DNA of 28,958 nucleotides, taken from positions 1-28,958 of the IMG/VR virus record IMGVR_UViG_3300008117_000622. One strand, given 5' to 3'. Under the pieces are notes generated by a model. That model was not told where the DNA came from and ran no database searches. It saw nothing but the letters and a program-made list of their open reading frames with translations. Position 1 is the stretch's first letter, and each line of letters starts with the position of its first letter. Shown piece after piece: positions 966 to 27,769 of the stretch. The translations under genes were made by a program, and so were the position numbers. Source of the DNA: a virus.

Positions 966-1262
966 CAAACAATTGATGAGTATAAAATAATCGAGAATGG
1001 GGAGGTTGTTGGCGAGATTGCTTTATGGCAATATAGCAATCAAAAATTTCCCCAGATTGAATATAAAGTAAAACTAGAGCATCAAAATAAAGGCATTATG
1101 ACAAGGCACTTGCCAATTTATCTTGATAGAATAAAGGGTTTTGGCAAGGTTTTAGCGGTGGTTATGGAGGATAACTTAATAAGTATCAAACTATTATTAG
1201 CTAACGGCTTTAAAGAGCTTGGAAAGATTAACAACAAAAGGATTTTTATTTGTGAATTATAA
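960..1262 (+). CDS. Small GNAT-family acetyltransferase-like protein
   Basis: The 100-aa product fits a minimal GNAT fold. Residues about 9-25 form the early strands (ENGEVVGEIALW). A motif-A-like stretch, VKLEHQNKGIMTRHLP, carries a QxxGxx version of the acetyl-CoA pyrophosphate loop. A motif-B-like end, SIKLLLANGFKELGKI, is the usual NxxSxxLxxxxGF pattern of the family. I chose the ATG at 960, which overlaps the preceding stop as ATGA; an alternative codon at 933 would add nine residues with no support. The gene overlaps the methyltransferase start by 11 nt, so the two are probably made together. The substrate is unknown. Protein acetylation is the family default. A role in DNA modification, as for the GNAT-fold Mom protein of phage Mu, is speculation from the neighbour. 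Confidence 0.72.
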   Translation: MIQTIDEYKIIENGEVVGEIALWQYSNQKFPQIEYKVKLEHQNKGIMTRHLPIYLDRIKGFGKVLAVVMEDNLISIKLLLANGFKELGKINNKRIFICEL

Positions 1263-2154
1263 AACTTGGCAAGATGGCAGAATAAAACTATACAACGGCG
1301 ATTGCTTGGAGCTTATGGAGAATATGCAAGACAAGGTTAACTTGGTTTTGATCGATCCGCCGTATGGTTTATTAGATCATAAAATAGAAACTAATATTGA
1401 TATAGAGTTATTTTTAAAATTATGTAAAAAAATATTAAATGACAATGACTTTTTAATTTACTTCGGTCAACAACCAATGATAACTGACTGGAATTATATT
1501 GCTAACAAGCTTTTTAATTATAAAAATGAAGTTATTTGGTATAAAAGAGGTATTTCGTGTCCTTTTACCGAAATGAAAAGAGTTTTTGAGAATATTATGA
1601 TTTATTGTAGTGGCAAGAAAAAATATAATGATGTAAAAATAAGATACACTGATATTTTAGAAAATATGTGCGAGTTTATATCTTTAAAAAGTTTTAAAAA
1701 AAATATTAATCTATTAGAAAATTTATGCAAAGAAGATAGAATTTTTGAGTTAAAAGATTTTTTTAATGGCAAGGTTTTATTTCAAAAAAATAAAAGTTCC
1801 GAAAATGGTAAAATATATAATATAAAACAAAAACCTTCAAGAGAAATCGCTACTTTTAAATTTATTAGAGATGGATTTGGTTTAAGAAATTTATTATCTT
1901 TTAATTCAAAAAATAATGATGGAAAGTTATACAATCATCCGACAATTAAGCCATTAGAATTAATACAATATCTTATATTAATTTGTTCGCAACCTAACGA
2001 TCTTGTTTTTGATGGTTTTAGTGGTAGTGGCACAACCGCCATATCTTGTATCAAAACTAATCGCAGATTTATCGGTTGCGAACTTGACAAAGAATATTTT
2101 AATTTAGCTTGCAATAGAATTGATGCAGAATTAAAACAAGGTAATTTATTTTAA
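1252..2154 (+). CDS. DNA N6-adenine/N4-cytosine methyltransferase, beta class
   Basis: The protein (about 300 aa) shows the permuted motif order of beta-class amino-methyltransferases. Catalytic motif IV DPPYG is near residues 35-39, a long variable middle (about 105-225) is the likely target-recognition region, motif X HPTIKP is near 229-234, and the SAM-binding motif I FDGFSGSGTT is near 253-262, followed by an acidic GCELD. DPPY favours adenine-N6 as target, though N4-cytosine enzymes of this fold exist. I chose the GTG at 1252 because AAGGA (1238-1242) sits nine bases upstream; a TTG at 1219 would add 11 residues. The start overlaps the GNAT gene. No restriction endonuclease is next to it, so it is best read as an orphan phage methyltransferase for self-protection or regulation. 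Confidence 0.9.
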   Translation: MNYKTWQDGRIKLYNGDCLELMENMQDKVNLVLIDPPYGLLDHKIETNIDIELFLKLCKKILNDNDFLIYFGQQPMITDWNYIANKLFNYKNEVIWYKRGISCPFTEMKRVFENIMIYCSGKKKYNDVKIRYTDILENMCEFISLKSFKKNINLLENLCKEDRIFELKDFFNGKVLFQKNKSSENGKIYNIKQKPSREIATFKFIRDGFGLRNLLSFNSKNNDGKLYNHPTIKPLELIQYLILICSQPNDLVFDGFSGSGTTAISCIKTNRRFIGCELDKEYFNLACNRIDAELKQGNLF

Positions 2155-2313: not shown

Positions 2314-2358
2314 AATAAACAAAAGATAAACGAAAGATAAACGAAAAGATAAACGAAA
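2314..2358 (+). repeat. GATAAAC repeat cluster 1
   Basis: Three GATAAAC motifs start at 2325, 2336 and 2348 (spacings 11 and 12 bp), preceded by a degenerate AATAAAC at 2314. The units vary slightly (aaaa, gaaa, gaaaa linkers), so this looks like an older, diverged half of the array at 2394-2437. Confidence 0.8.
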
Positions 2359-2393
2359 CTGCCACCGAGCCAGTAAAATCAAGGATCTAAAAA

Positions 2394-2437
2394 GATAAAC
2401 AAAAGATAAACAAAAGATAAACAAAAGATAAACAAAA
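2394..2437 (+). repeat. GATAAAC iteron-like array, four perfect 11-bp units
   Basis: Four identical GATAAACAAAA units start at 2394, 2405, 2416 and 2427. The 11-bp period is close to one helical turn, so a bound protein would stack on one face of the DNA. The array ends three bases before a TTGACA -35 element. Such arrays are known as iterons at replication origins or as operator arrays; which applies here is not decided by the sequence. Confidence 0.9.
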
Positions 2438-2440
2438 CTA

Positions 2441-2469
2441 TTGACAAGTTAAAAATAATGCATCATAAT
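2441..2469 (+). promoter_or_regulatory. Sigma70-like promoter next to the repeat array
   Basis: TTGACA (2441-2446, consensus -35), a 17-bp spacer and CATAAT (2464-2469, five of six matches to -10) point rightward. Transcription would start near 2476. AT-rich DNA yields chance promoters, but a perfect -35 with ideal spacing right after four direct repeats is notable. Confidence 0.65.
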
Positions 2470-2475
2470 TATCTT

Positions 2476-2547
2476 GTTCAAAAGCAATTCTTGTTTTTGA
2501 GTTTGCATCATTGCAAGGGGTGGCAATAGTTACCCCTTGTTTATTTT
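2476..2547 (+). ncRNA. Candidate small RNA, about 70 nt
   Basis: Between the promoter at 2441-2469 and the terminator at 2514-2547 there is room for a short transcript with no useful open frame. It can fold a 5' hairpin TCAAAA/TTTTGA (2478-2483 with 2495-2500), a hairpin TTGCA/TGCAA (2503-2507 with 2512-2516), and the terminator stem. The second and third hairpins share bases 2514-2516 and would compete. The transcript ends inside the stop codon of the convergent nuclease gene, so read-through would be antisense to that mRNA. No known RNA family is recognised. Confidence 0.4.
2514..2547 (+). terminator. Rho-independent terminator, rightward
   Basis: CAAGGGGT (2514-2521) pairs with ACCCCTTG (2532-2539) around a 10-nt loop and is followed by TTTATTTT (2540-2547). 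On the opposite strand the hairpin has no T-run, so it works for rightward transcripts, shielding the lysis genes from the left cluster. Confidence 0.75.
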
Positions 2548-2977
2548 ACTTGCACCAGTCTTTTGTTTTAGTTCCACCATCATAATAAACAGCCAAGCCG
2601 TTTCTAACAAGCTCATCTGCAAGGTTTAAGCCGTTTTTATCTACATTGACTAAATATCTGCCGTATTTATCTAATTCTAAATAAACAATCTCAACACCGC
2701 CCTTAACAAAGTTAGAAACAAATTCTTTTGCTTTTAAGCCAAGTTCAATCTCTTTTTTACATTTTGCAGCTTGTTTAAAACTTTCAGGAGCATCAATACC
2801 TGCTATTCTATGATTTTTTTGCAATAAATCAGCAGGAGGTTTTGGGTTAATTATAACAATAGTATCGCCGTCTATCACTCTATCAATTGTTGTAGCATAA
2901 CTATTGATAGAAACAAAAAGACAAATAATAAATAAAATTGTTGCGAAAATAAAAAATAGTATATCTTTTTTTTGCAT
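2546..2977 (-). CDS. Secreted staphylococcal-nuclease-like thermonuclease
   Basis: The 143-aa protein starts with a positively charged N-terminus, a hydrophobic stretch (residues 6-24) and NSYA, a plausible signal-peptidase site after Ala28. A SNase domain follows. The catalytic residues are all present: DGDT (36-39), RIAGIDAPE (Arg57, Asp62, Glu65) and DKYGR with Arg107. So it should be an active Ca-dependent nuclease exported to the periplasm or held by an uncleaved anchor. It is the last gene of the leftward operon, one base after the membrane-protein gene. Degradation of host or competing DNA around lysis is a reasonable role, but is inferred. Length is typical for a compact SNase. Confidence 0.85.
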   Translation of the reverse strand: MQKKDILFFIFATILFIICLFVSINSYATTIDRVIDGDTIVIINPKPPADLLQKNHRIAGIDAPESFKQAAKCKKEIELGLKAKEFVSNFVKGGVEIVYLELDKYGRYLVNVDKNGLNLADELVRNGLAVYYDGGTKTKDWCK

Positions 2978-3866: not shown

Positions 3867-4139
3867 TTATTTTAATTTAAATTGGTTAAAACATTTTTCT
3901 TTTGCCTCCTCGTCTGGCAAACAACCGCATTTTTTAACTGCCATTATTAAAACAAGGTGAGTAAATACTGGCTGGCTCAATACTTCATTTTGCTTTACAA
4001 TCTCTTTTATATCTAAACTAGGTATAATATCGCAACAATTTTGATTACTAGTCTGCAAAGTTAAAGTCTTCAATTTGTTGCAAGAGGCGAGACCGCTCAT
4101 TAATATCATAAGTAGACACATTACTTTTAATTTTTTCAT
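3867..4139 (-). CDS. Small lipoprotein, candidate o-spanin
   Basis: The 90-aa protein starts MKKLKVMCLL, followed by a hydrophobic core and a clear lipobox LASC with the lipidated Cys at residue 20; the residue after it (Asn) does not forbid outer-membrane sorting. The mature part has several Cys (QNCCD, KKCGCLP, EKCF). Its first 92 nt lie inside the 3' end of the upstream membrane-protein gene in another frame, the classic Rz/Rz1 layout. That makes an outer-membrane spanin the leading guess. Against it, the mature part is not proline-rich like lambda Rz1. It indicates a Gram-negative host. Confidence 0.72.
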   Translation of the reverse strand: MKKLKVMCLLMILMSGLASCNKLKTLTLQTSNQNCCDIIPSLDIKEIVKQNEVLSQPVFTHLVLIMAVKKCGCLPDEEAKEKCFNQFKLK

Positions 4140-4968
4140 ATTTTATAATAGTTTTAATTGTTTTTGTTTGATTGTCTAAATTCGCAGAAGTTATTATATT
4201 TTCACAAATTAATTTCTCGTCTTCTCTTGCTTTAATAACAGCATTTTTAGTTTGCTGTTTCATAAAAGCAATTGTTAGAATATATATCGCAATAATTAAT
4301 GTAGATGCAATTTTAATCATAAAATATTGTTTTAATTTATCTAAATAAAAAGTTGCATTTTCACAATATTTATTGCTCCAACTTGTCATTGAGATGGCAT
4401 AAATAACTTTTTTTTCAGTATTTATTACACCGCTTAACCATAAAGTATGTATATTATCAAAATTAGGCGATTGTTTTAATATTTCGTAAATTGTCAAATA
4501 TCTTTCAATATTAAAAGTTGCCAAATTTAATTCTTTTGTTTCATTTTCAATAGCAATATCTTTTAATAATTTATATGTTTCAAAATCTACATTATAATCG
4601 CTTCTATATTTTTCTTGCAAGGTTAAATCTAATAAACATTCTGCACTATAATTTTTATCGCAAGCCCAAAACTCTTTAAATTTACCATAATAATTGCTAG
4701 TGGTTTCGCTACTAATAACACTTACAGCAATTGCATTTTTATCACCGCATTTTCTTAAAATATTTTGTATCTCTTTTTTAATTCTCTCGTCTTGTATCGC
4801 ATCAACATAAATAGAATTATCGTAATGTTTTTTTATTATAAAAAAACCACTAATTGCAATTGTAATTGCTAGTAAAATAACAATTAACAATATTTTGTTA
4901 AAAGATTTTATTAGTTTAAAAAAACCATTAATAGCATTGATTTTAGATAAAATATCAAACAAGAACAT
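4048..4968 (-). CDS. Two-TM protein with periplasmic domain, i-spanin-like tail
   Basis: The 306-aa protein has a basic N-terminus, TM1 at about 26-45, a roughly 170-residue domain with four Cys (74, 103, 111, 202) that is probably periplasmic and disulfide-bonded, TM2 at about 217-236, and a charged helical tail (237-306) ending ERSRLLQQIEDFNFAD. TM2 plus tail looks like a short Rz-type i-spanin, and the lipoprotein gene nested in its 3' end supports that. The simple topology (N-in, TM1 out, TM2 in) would put the tail in the cytoplasm, which a spanin cannot have. It may instead be a sensor-type lysis regulator. The gene overlaps the preceding one by 14 nt. Family not recognised. Confidence 0.65.
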   Translation of the reverse strand: MFLFDILSKINAINGFFKLIKSFNKILLIVILLAITIAISGFFIIKKHYDNSIYVDAIQDERIKKEIQNILRKCGDKNAIAVSVISSETTSNYYGKFKEFWACDKNYSAECLLDLTLQEKYRSDYNVDFETYKLLKDIAIENETKELNLATFNIERYLTIYEILKQSPNFDNIHTLWLSGVINTEKKVIYAISMTSWSNKYCENATFYLDKLKQYFMIKIASTLIIAIYILTIAFMKQQTKNAVIKAREDEKLICENIITSANLDNQTKTIKTIIKYEKIKSNVSTYDINERSRLLQQIEDFNFAD

Positions 4969-11534: not shown

Positions 11535-12155
11535 TTAACTCCTAATTTTAATTGCTTTAATAATCCCAGTTTGGTTTGAAACTCCACCTACTATATTAAA
11601 ATTTTTCCAATAAATTCTGCCGTCATTAGTATAAGCGAGACCATTATTTATTGCTGTAAAGCCGTTATTTGTGCCGACAACAAGACAATCGTTTGAGATA
11701 GTCCCGTCTTGCTCATTACCATAGACGGCAAAATCAGAAAAACCTGTTGTAGTTAATGATATTGATAGCTTAACATCAAATTCCAAAAACTCTGTTGTAT
11801 TTATAATTAAAGCATTGCCACTTCCAGCAGTTGAGCTAACAAATACTATTTGTTGACTTGCGCCTAAGACAAGTTTTTTATCGTTTGCATCCCATCTTGA
11901 AAATGCAATTATATTAGATGAATTTGTGCGAATAAGAGCATAATCCATTATACCTAAGTTTGTGTAACCACTAGGAACGGTAGGTGATGTTGCAGATACA
12001 CTAAACAAAATATCATAGGCACCGCTTGTATTATTTTGAATAACAAAAGTTCTATAAAAAGTGTTAGCTACTCTTGCCCCAGTATCTAATCCATTATTTG
12101 TATCACCAGCAGTCCAGCTACCAGTAGATTGTATTTTTTTCCTTATAGTTGGCAA
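11535..12155 (-). CDS. Tail fibre tip-like protein
   Basis: The 206-aa protein looks like the C-terminal half of a phage fibre: GLDTGARVANTFYRTFVIQN, LFSVSATSPTVPSGYTNLG and ALIRTNSSNI form the pattern common in receptor-binding fibre tips. The listed start is a TTG at 12155; the frame stays open further upstream (NSSGIQIY precedes it). The gene overlaps the previous fibre gene by 13 nt and lies in its -1 frame. It may be a separately translated tip, a second half reached by frameshift, or the result of a mutation that split one fibre gene. The start is therefore uncertain. Confidence 0.65.
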   Translation of the reverse strand: MPTIRKKIQSTGSWTAGDTNNGLDTGARVANTFYRTFVIQNNTSGAYDILFSVSATSPTVPSGYTNLGIMDYALIRTNSSNIIAFSRWDANDKKLVLGASQQIVFVSSTAGSGNALIINTTEFLEFDVKLSISLTTTGFSDFAVYGNEQDGTISNDCLVVGTNNGFTAINNGLAYTNDGRIYWKNFNIVGGVSNQTGIIKAIKIRS

Positions 12156-17802: not shown

Positions 17803-19223
17803 TAGAACCCCGCAAAAACTGAATTGACACCAACTGGTAAGAAGTTGTTAGGGCGAGGAGTAAAACCTGCACTAGAACCTTGTGGCAAGCCTTTAATATT
17901 AACATCTAATTGACCGCCTGCTGTCAATTGTTGTGGTTTATTAATTTGTGCTGGCTGGTTCATTTTTGGAGCTACCATTTCCGACAAATTATCAAGACCA
18001 ATTTTTGGTGCTACTATTTTTGACAATTTATCAAGCCCAATAAAATCTAAAACAATAGAAGTATCGGCTCTAAACTGATTAATCAATCCCATTACCATTT
18101 TTAGTTTTTCGGCAACATAATCAAAAGCACTTGCAAATGTATTTACAAGAAAATCTTTAATTATTATCAAGTCGTCTTTTAATAAAAGGAAAGTAGCAAT
18201 TAAACCAGCAACTGCAACACTTATTAAACCTATTGGACTTATAAGAAATAAAAGGGCAACGGCAAATCCTTTAACTGCAAAAACAAGAGAGGCAAAAATA
18301 ATTACAAGTGGTGGAAGTATAGCAACTAATCCAGCAACAATTAAAATAAACTTTTGTGTTTGAGGGGTTAATTGCTGGAAGTATTGAATACCTTTAATTA
18401 AAACACCTAAAAATTGAGTTGCATATGGTAATATTGCAATTCCTAATTGAATAGACAAATCTTTATAGGCAGAGCCTGCAATTCTCATTTGGTTTGCAAA
18501 ACCAGTTTGAGTTCGCAAAAAATCTCCGTGTGAGTTTGCAGTCATTTTTACAACATAACTATATCGTTGCAAGACTTTTTCTGCCTGAGTTAAATCGCTC
18601 ATTTTTTTTGCTATACCTTGTATTTTTAAAAACTGATTAAGATTTTCTTCTGTCATAACAACACCAAGTCTTTTTAAGCTCTCCGTTTCACCAGTAAAAA
18701 TACCAGCAAGGGCAGTTTGCACTTCGCTAATATTTAAGTTTTTAAATGATGCTAAATCACCAGCTAAGCCTACTAAACTTGTTGACAATGTAGATGCTTT
18801 TTCTTGTGAAAGTCCCATTGATGTTGACATATCGCCGAATAAAGCCGCCATATCAAGGGCAGTGCCTTTATCAATACCAAAGTTTTTACCTGCTAATAAT
18901 GAAAATTCTTTCACAGTTTGTGAGGCTTCACCAAATGCAACATCTACCTTGTTTATTGATTCGCTATAATCCGATGCATCTTTTATAAATTTTGTAGCAA
19001 ATAAACTTATTGGCAAAGTTGCTTTTAAAAACATATCTTTACCAAATTGCATACTTTTAGTGCCAATTTTATCCAATTTATCTTTTAATTTATCAAGAGA
19101 GTTAGCCATTGATTGTGCCACTCTTTTTGTTGTAGTTGATACAGCTTCTAAACTTGATTGTATTTTTTTTAATTGAGGAGTTATGTTATCAATTAGATCG
19201 TATATATATGAAACTTTAAACAT
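17802..19223 (-). CDS. Tail tape measure protein
   Basis: The 473-aa protein has a helical N-terminus with heptad-like repeats (LKKIQSSLEAVSTTTKRVAQ), the tape-measure core pattern SQTVKEFSLLAGKNFG, LSTSLVGLAGDLASF and TALAGIFTGETESLKRLGVV, and a strongly hydrophobic region (about 290-350) that probably helps cross the inner membrane. At roughly 1.5 angstrom per residue it would span about 70 nm, a short tail; this is an estimate. A tandem 13-residue repeat (IGLDKLSKIVAPK, IGLDNLSEMVAPK) precedes the Pro/Gly-rich C-terminus. It overlaps the frameshifted chaperone end by 8 nt. Confidence 0.9.
   Translation of the reverse strand: MFKVSYIYDLIDNITPQLKKIQSSLEAVSTTTKRVAQSMANSLDKLKDKLDKIGTKSMQFGKDMFLKATLPISLFATKFIKDASDYSESINKVDVAFGEASQTVKEFSLLAGKNFGIDKGTALDMAALFGDMSTSMGLSQEKASTLSTSLVGLAGDLASFKNLNISEVQTALAGIFTGETESLKRLGVVMTEENLNQFLKIQGIAKKMSDLTQAEKVLQRYSYVVKMTANSHGDFLRTQTGFANQMRIAGSAYKDLSIQLGIAILPYATQFLGVLIKGIQYFQQLTPQTQKFILIVAGLVAILPPLVIIFASLVFAVKGFAVALLFLISPIGLISVAVAGLIATFLLLKDDLIIIKDFLVNTFASAFDYVAEKLKMVMGLINQFRADTSIVLDFIGLDKLSKIVAPKIGLDNLSEMVAPKMNQPAQINKPQQLTAGGQLDVNIKGLPQGSSAGFTPRPNNFLPVGVNSVFAGF
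17962..18039 (-). repeat. Two tandem 39-bp units in the tape measure gene
   Basis: Units at 17962-18000 and 18001-18039 are imperfect copies encoding the two IGLDxLSxxVAPK segments. A 13-codon unit keeps the frame, so unit number could change tail length slightly. Confidence 0.75.
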
Positions 19224-27481: not shown

Positions 27482-27769
27482 ATGAATATTAACATTAATA
27501 TTAAATTTAACGGCTCTTATTTATTTTTTAGATGGGTTTTGCAACACTATAAAAAGCAATTACCTTATAATGGCGAGGTTAAGCAGTTTGCGATTGAAAA
27601 CAATTACTGCCCTAAGATATGCGACCAGTGGAGGAATTATGGAGTTGGTTATAGAGTTTGGAATTTGCTATATAAAGACTTAATTATTAGTTTTTTGATG
27701 GGTAAAATAGATAATGCAAATATTTATGAGCTTGAAAAAAAATTTTTAGGCTTAAAACAAAAAAAATAA
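27482..27769 (+). CDS. 95-aa protein of unknown function, opposite strand
   Basis: The only rightward gene in the head module, placed between the minor head and protease genes; its stop is one base from the stop of the minor head gene. It encodes a basic, aromatic-rich, probably helical protein (YLFFRWVLQHYKKQLPYNGE, KICDQWRNYGVGYRVWNLLY). Aromatic and helix spacing faintly recall small SAM-like domains (YozE type), but I do not trust this. It has its own promoter with operator-like dyads, suggesting expression out of phase with the late operon: a moron, a superinfection factor or a regulator. No ribosome site is evident. Confidence 0.65.
   Translation: MNININIKFNGSYLFFRWVLQHYKKQLPYNGEVKQFAIENNYCPKICDQWRNYGVGYRVWNLLYKDLIISFLMGKIDNANIYELEKKFLGLKQKK

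Follow-up and report, generated by a model that had tools for sequence, protein, structure and literature searches.

A perfect 11-bp tandem repeat adjoins a -35 box in a gap of an AT-rich phage genome, and raises the question of whether such an array serves replication, regulator binding or transcription. The window analysed here is the entire IMG/VR record IMGVR_UViG_3300008117_000622 (28,958 bases, 31.5% G+C), possibly a fragment. Its short rightward block encodes an HTH-like protein of 215 aa, a GNAT protein and a DNA methyltransferase, and ends at 2154; its leftward block, with its first stop codon at 2546, carries head and tail genes (major head protein, head morphogenesis, and proteins of 518 aa, 447 aa (baseplate-type) and 1167 aa). 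Array and promoter lie in the convergent gap between these blocks. The original prediction placed them at the single gap between rightward and leftward genes, which is right as to the convergence and slightly overstated as to "single", since a small number of short ORFs inside the leftward block run rightward (e.g., 27482-27769). The features of the site are:

1219-2154, plus strand: N6/N4 DNA methyltransferase, last gene of the rightward block (Pfam PF01555, 3e-33)
2314-2358, plus strand: distal cluster of four diverged units, AATAAACAAAA, GATAAACGAAA, GATAAACGAAAA and GATAAACGAAA (about -162 to -118)
2390-2437, plus strand: proximal array of 4.4 exact 11-bp units, with A-tracts at -42 to -39, -53 to -50, -64 to -61, -75 to -72 and -87 to -83
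2441-2469, plus strand: sigma-70-type promoter TTGACA-17 bp-CATAAT (11/12), invariant in sister phage G001 and with one spacer change in sister phage G002
2476-2547, plus strand: predicted small RNA of about 70 nt, ATG-free, its start placed from the -10 box
2478-2500, plus strand: predicted 5' hairpin (10 bp, 3-nt loop), from the fold
2513-2548, plus strand: predicted intrinsic terminator (12-bp stem and 4-nt loop at 2513-2540, then TTATTTTA), overlapping the SNase stop codon (2546-2548)
2546-2977, minus strand: staphylococcal-nuclease-like (SNase) gene, last gene of the leftward block (Pfam PF00565, 4e-12)

A-tract positions are counted from the predicted transcription start.

An exact array and a diverged distal cluster

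The array contains four exact GATAAACAAAA units, starting at 2394, 2405, 2416 and 2427 (11-bp period, 2394-2437), and TRF reports an 11-bp unit in 4.4 copies at 100% over 2390-2437. With TTGACA following three bases on, at 2441, the predicted arrangement of identical units and -35 box is confirmed. So is the diverged group of three GATAAAC upstream (starts at 2325, 2336 and 2348), to which a fourth diverged unit, AATAAACAAAA at 2314, can be added. The longest exact self-overlap in the window spans 37 bases, at period 11, compared with 15 for the best of 100 dinucleotide shuffles. GATAAAC itself is concentrated at the site (seven of the 11 copies in the window fall in the array and distal cluster), a search of the genomes for further clusters found no second array, and the doubled GATAAACAAAA unit occurs at no other place in the record. 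In the distal cluster GATAAAC is intact and the A-tract is interrupted (CGAAA).

The interval from the methyltransferase gene to the distal cluster contains a perfect inverted repeat, CCATTTTGTT-AATGTC-AACAAAATGG (2274-2299), which has no T tail on either strand, is absent in G001 and is a possible dimer-binding site.

A near-consensus promoter and a predicted small RNA

The association of the array with a -35 box proved correct, and the promoter is the key to the site. TTGACA-17-CATAAT is a near-consensus sigma-70 promoter and the best promoter-like match within the first 6 kb; the record holds two 11/12 matches, and the other one is intragenic. What the original prediction overlooked is a conserved, predicted RNA gene beyond this promoter. 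A terminator starts about 45 bases past it, giving a predicted RNA with the architecture 10-bp hairpin, 12-nt linker, terminator. This element has its own promoter and a Rho-independent terminator, both on the plus strand, as is expected of a small-RNA gene.

Folding separates the strands. The plus strand reaches -27.7 kcal/mol (z -5.3; shuffles -13.1 +/- 2.8) and the minus strand -16.5 kcal/mol (z -2.8), the weaker minus-strand fold arising because plus-strand G-U pairs become A-C mismatches. If the element is an RNA, it is therefore read from the plus strand. An Rfam scan of the window gave no match above the gathering threshold, and among phage start regions no base-pairing target of the linker scored above shuffled linkers.

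Conservation of the promoter, RNA and array

Searching IMG/VR with the nuclease protein recovered three relatives: G001 (88% amino acid identity), G002 (74%) and G003 (64%). The promoter and RNA are identical to those of the window phage at 106/108 positions in G001 and 107/108 in G002. As G001 is about 96% identical to the window phage over most of the neighbourhood, the conservation argument rests mainly on G002, in which the adjacent genes have 70-82% nucleotide identity (41-65% at fourfold sites) and the identity profile peaks at 100% over the RNA, dropping on either side. Similarity is also fairly high (88-92%) over the final 100 bases of the nuclease gene, and a little recombination may add to the local conservation. 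Structurally, 71 of 73 columns are invariant in the three phages, which is too little variation for covariation.

The array persists, partly degenerate, in both sister phages. G001 has both clusters with some units altered, its distal one being a 4-unit cluster, and G002 has three to four degenerate proximal units and no distal cluster. The distance from array to TTGACA is identical in all three phages, and the phase of the A-tracts is common to them as far as -87, despite G/C changes in GATAAAC, with tract extents differing by one to two bases and some runs longer. G003 has the nuclease and a methyltransferase adjacent to each other, but lacks both the array and the RNA.

Outside this family, other viral contigs contain neither the RNA, nor the promoter, nor an array with a promoter, and the RNA and promoter patterns match only the two sister phages. 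The 22-base hairpin has no match in genome contigs, and similar DNA was not found in phage records. Pairs of array units do occur in other viral contigs, without an adjoining TTGACA, and the five matches outside the family look like chance.

In G002 an 86-aa gene (34642-34902) lies directly upstream of the array, and positions 2200-2235 of the window resemble its 3' end and are probably a relic of gene loss. G002 (L114, L115) shares the nuclease and RNA arm with the window and has a different structural-gene module, a case of module exchange between phage types. Other G002 genes encode a clamp resembling DnaN (PF02767) and a protein weakly similar to J-domain proteins, and two repeat-bearing stretches on L114 (3538-3698 and 320-762, with 15-nt and 75-nt periods) are probably repeat proteins.

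Phased A-tracts and the early promoter class

In E. coli UP elements the proximal A-tract lies at -44 to -41 (PMC5664571). The proximal tract here is AAAA at -42 to -39 in the window phage and G002 and A8 at -46 to -39 in G001, at most two bases from the E. coli position. The region of the distal subsite (-57 to -47) has A-tracts at -57 to -55 and -53 to -50, and lacks the T-tract found in the UP consensus. A-tracts placed in phase upstream of a promoter have been shown to activate it (PMC2753651), and repeat tracts beside a -35 box can tune promoter output (PMC4081817).

The same design recurs in the sister phages. Other strong promoters of G001 and G002 lie mostly directly upstream of early genes, and in these early promoters an A-tract ends about 3 bases before TTGACA and the -10 box is mostly TAAAAT. 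Across eleven sister-phage promoters other than that of the array, the positions matching -44 to -39 are 86% A, compared with 38% further upstream, and a second A-rich peak lies about 11 bp above the first; A-rich intergenic DNA raises these percentages, and the peaks are nonetheless sharply positioned. Their arrangement matches that of E. coli UP elements (PMC5664571). Since the A-tract-TTGACA design is common to the early promoters, we read the array promoter as a putative member of the early class in which the upstream tract has been multiplied.

Predicted curvature of the array falls between the 96.6th and 99.99th percentile of the phage's own genome (three phages, two simple wedge models). 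When the A-rich segment itself is shuffled by mononucleotide, the excess is modest, with 7% and 17% of shuffles reaching it.

On balance we lean towards the array being an extended, phased UP-element or curved-DNA region of a single promoter that would drive a new phage small RNA. The A-tracts, spaced about one helical turn apart, would lie on the RNA polymerase face and act as a multiplied UP element, as intrinsically curved DNA or as both, raising initiation at TTGACA-17-CATAAT. Contact with alpha-CTD and curvature are thus candidate mechanisms. Membership in the early-gene class would imply early reading by host sigma-70 polymerase, and the product would be an untranslated, presumably regulatory RNA, about 70 nt long, that begins with a hairpin, ends in a Rho-independent terminator and is encoded tail to tail with the nuclease gene of the late block. 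Against this reading, the distal T-tract is lacking, the curvature is unexceptional for the base composition, the distal cluster (-162 to -118) lies beyond ordinary alpha-CTD contact, and its GATAAAC is kept where the A-tract is broken, as protein recognition would predict.

If this reading is right, an undescribed small RNA family is gained, as is a practical rule for early promoters (A-tract, 3 nt, TTGACA, 16-17, TAaAAT) in poorly known AT-rich phages, a group in which one relative has been assigned by binning to a Rickettsiales genome. Tandem repeats in phage gaps would then not have to be origins and could be multiplied upstream elements of promoters. A bolder extension, which we consider improbable, is a new regulatory RNA family that would be made early and at high level and act on host or late genes, with repeat number serving as a rheostat through slippage, in phages linked to Rickettsiales-like hosts.

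Among the other promoters of the sister phages, the leader of G001 promoter 20852 (minus strand) contains an inverted repeat, TTGCCGTTTG...CAAACGGCAA, suggestive of a 5' hairpin that protects the mRNA, and the leader of G002 promoter 1015 (minus strand) starts with the same sequence.

Alternative explanations

The main rival, and a serious one, is a protein operator: cooperative binding to the GATAAAC units, along a single DNA face, by a protein of phage or host origin would switch the small RNA promoter. Exact repetition does extend beyond the A-tracts, the distal GATAAAC copies are preserved where the A-tract is broken, the distal cluster is remote from the promoter (in G001 as well), and the family of the 215-aa HTH protein is present in the three array phages and absent from G003. 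Yet the G and C of the unit differ from phage to phage where its A/T is constant, the genomes offer no second array, and no known family with such a site was identified. The 215-aa HTH protein, which the original prediction put forward as the possible regulator, is disfavoured as the binder because its N-terminal DNA-binding part has diverged strongly between the window phage and G001, whereas their arrays are nearly the same, a comparison that is weak with three phages. An operator for some phage regulator keeps a tentative place, and nothing favours this protein as its ligand. Overall we judge operator function possible and the less probable account of the array.

It is unlikely that the array is a neutral tandem duplication of AT-rich sequence that lies by chance upstream of a functional small RNA gene. 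Strand slippage generates such arrays, exact units are confined to the window phage, and G002 retains only part; against this, the distance to TTGACA and the A-tract phase are constant in three phages, and the nearest tract belongs to the family-wide promoter design.

Alternatively, the leftward late mRNA might have its 3' end in the conserved block, which would supply a terminator and stability hairpins, with a U-rich tail from the array on the minus strand. The block does lie directly after the SNase stop codon, and the minus strand of the array reads as TTTTGTTTATC repeats. The minus-strand fold, however, is 11 kcal/mol weaker as G-U pairs turn into A-C mismatches, the hairpin has a T tail on the plus strand only, and the consensus promoter of the family class is conserved on the plus strand, which together make this explanation very unlikely.

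Least probable is the originally proposed replication origin, with a phage initiator binding the units as iterons: direct repeats within an AT-rich gap beside a promoter and short RNA loosely recall lambda ori with OOP (PMC12197685), but the unit is just 11 bp long, the neighbours are methyltransferase, GNAT, HTH and nuclease genes rather than an initiator, G002 has lost most units and kept the RNA, and the site is a point of convergence at the maximum, not the minimum, of cumulative GC skew. The skew was computed on the 39-kb G002 (maximum at about 34 kb, minimum near 8 kb), and gene direction also produces such a skew. A better candidate origin is offered by the short TTGGGTT direct repeats that lie within the DUF6291 early gene in both G001 and G002 (L113 2380-2436; L114 2554-2617).

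Relation to known systems

The array resembles UP elements and phased A-tracts of the E. coli rrnB P1 and IS5-glpFK type in its -42 to -39 tract, one-turn spacing and predicted curvature (PMC5664571, PMC2753651). It differs from UP elements in having five tracts at 11-bp spacing where those have two subsites, in lacking the distal T-tract and in its extra distal cluster; its use of alpha-CTD is putative. Helicobacter pylori sabA, with its UP-like elements and repeat-length rheostat, likewise has a repetitive A/T tract beside the -35 box that sets output (PMC4081817), but that is a mononucleotide T-tract, whereas the array has an 11-bp unit, for which length variation is hypothetical. Lambda OOP, P22 sar and VpdS are phage small RNAs with their own promoter, tail to tail with another gene (PMC12197685); unlike them, the predicted RNA has no Rfam match and overlaps the opposite gene by the stop codon only. 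Iteron origins (lambda ori, plasmid iterons) share direct repeats and AT-rich DNA with the site, but its unit is short, no initiator adjoins it and its skew position is wrong.

Host lead and other genome features

A 17.8-kb contig of the MAG Rickettsiales bacterium JTM.66 encodes a relative of the 447-aa baseplate-type protein that is 84% identical to it, and the portion of that contig examined is phage sequence. A Rickettsiales host for the window phage is a lead, not a result, and a binning error is possible. The p125 family is absent from this MAG. A search of 344 genomes of its order with covariance model R1 gave low-scoring matches in 14 genomes; those inspected are ordinary terminators or partial matches, and none has the array.

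Elsewhere in the window, a 306-aa ORF (4048-4968) looks like two genes fused into one, the counterparts in G001 and G002 being separate (223 aa and a second small gene). A gene-junction repeat, AAAAGT(T/C)GC(T/C)CCGAAAATATGAT, occurs at 942-963 of the window, at 12099 and 12302 (minus strand) in G001 and at 35620 (minus strand) in G002, overlapping stop/start codons and yielding TKVAPKI C-termini. Akin to these, a 39-bp tandem repeat in a tape-measure-like gene (17962-18041) encodes VAPKI/VAPKM peptides.
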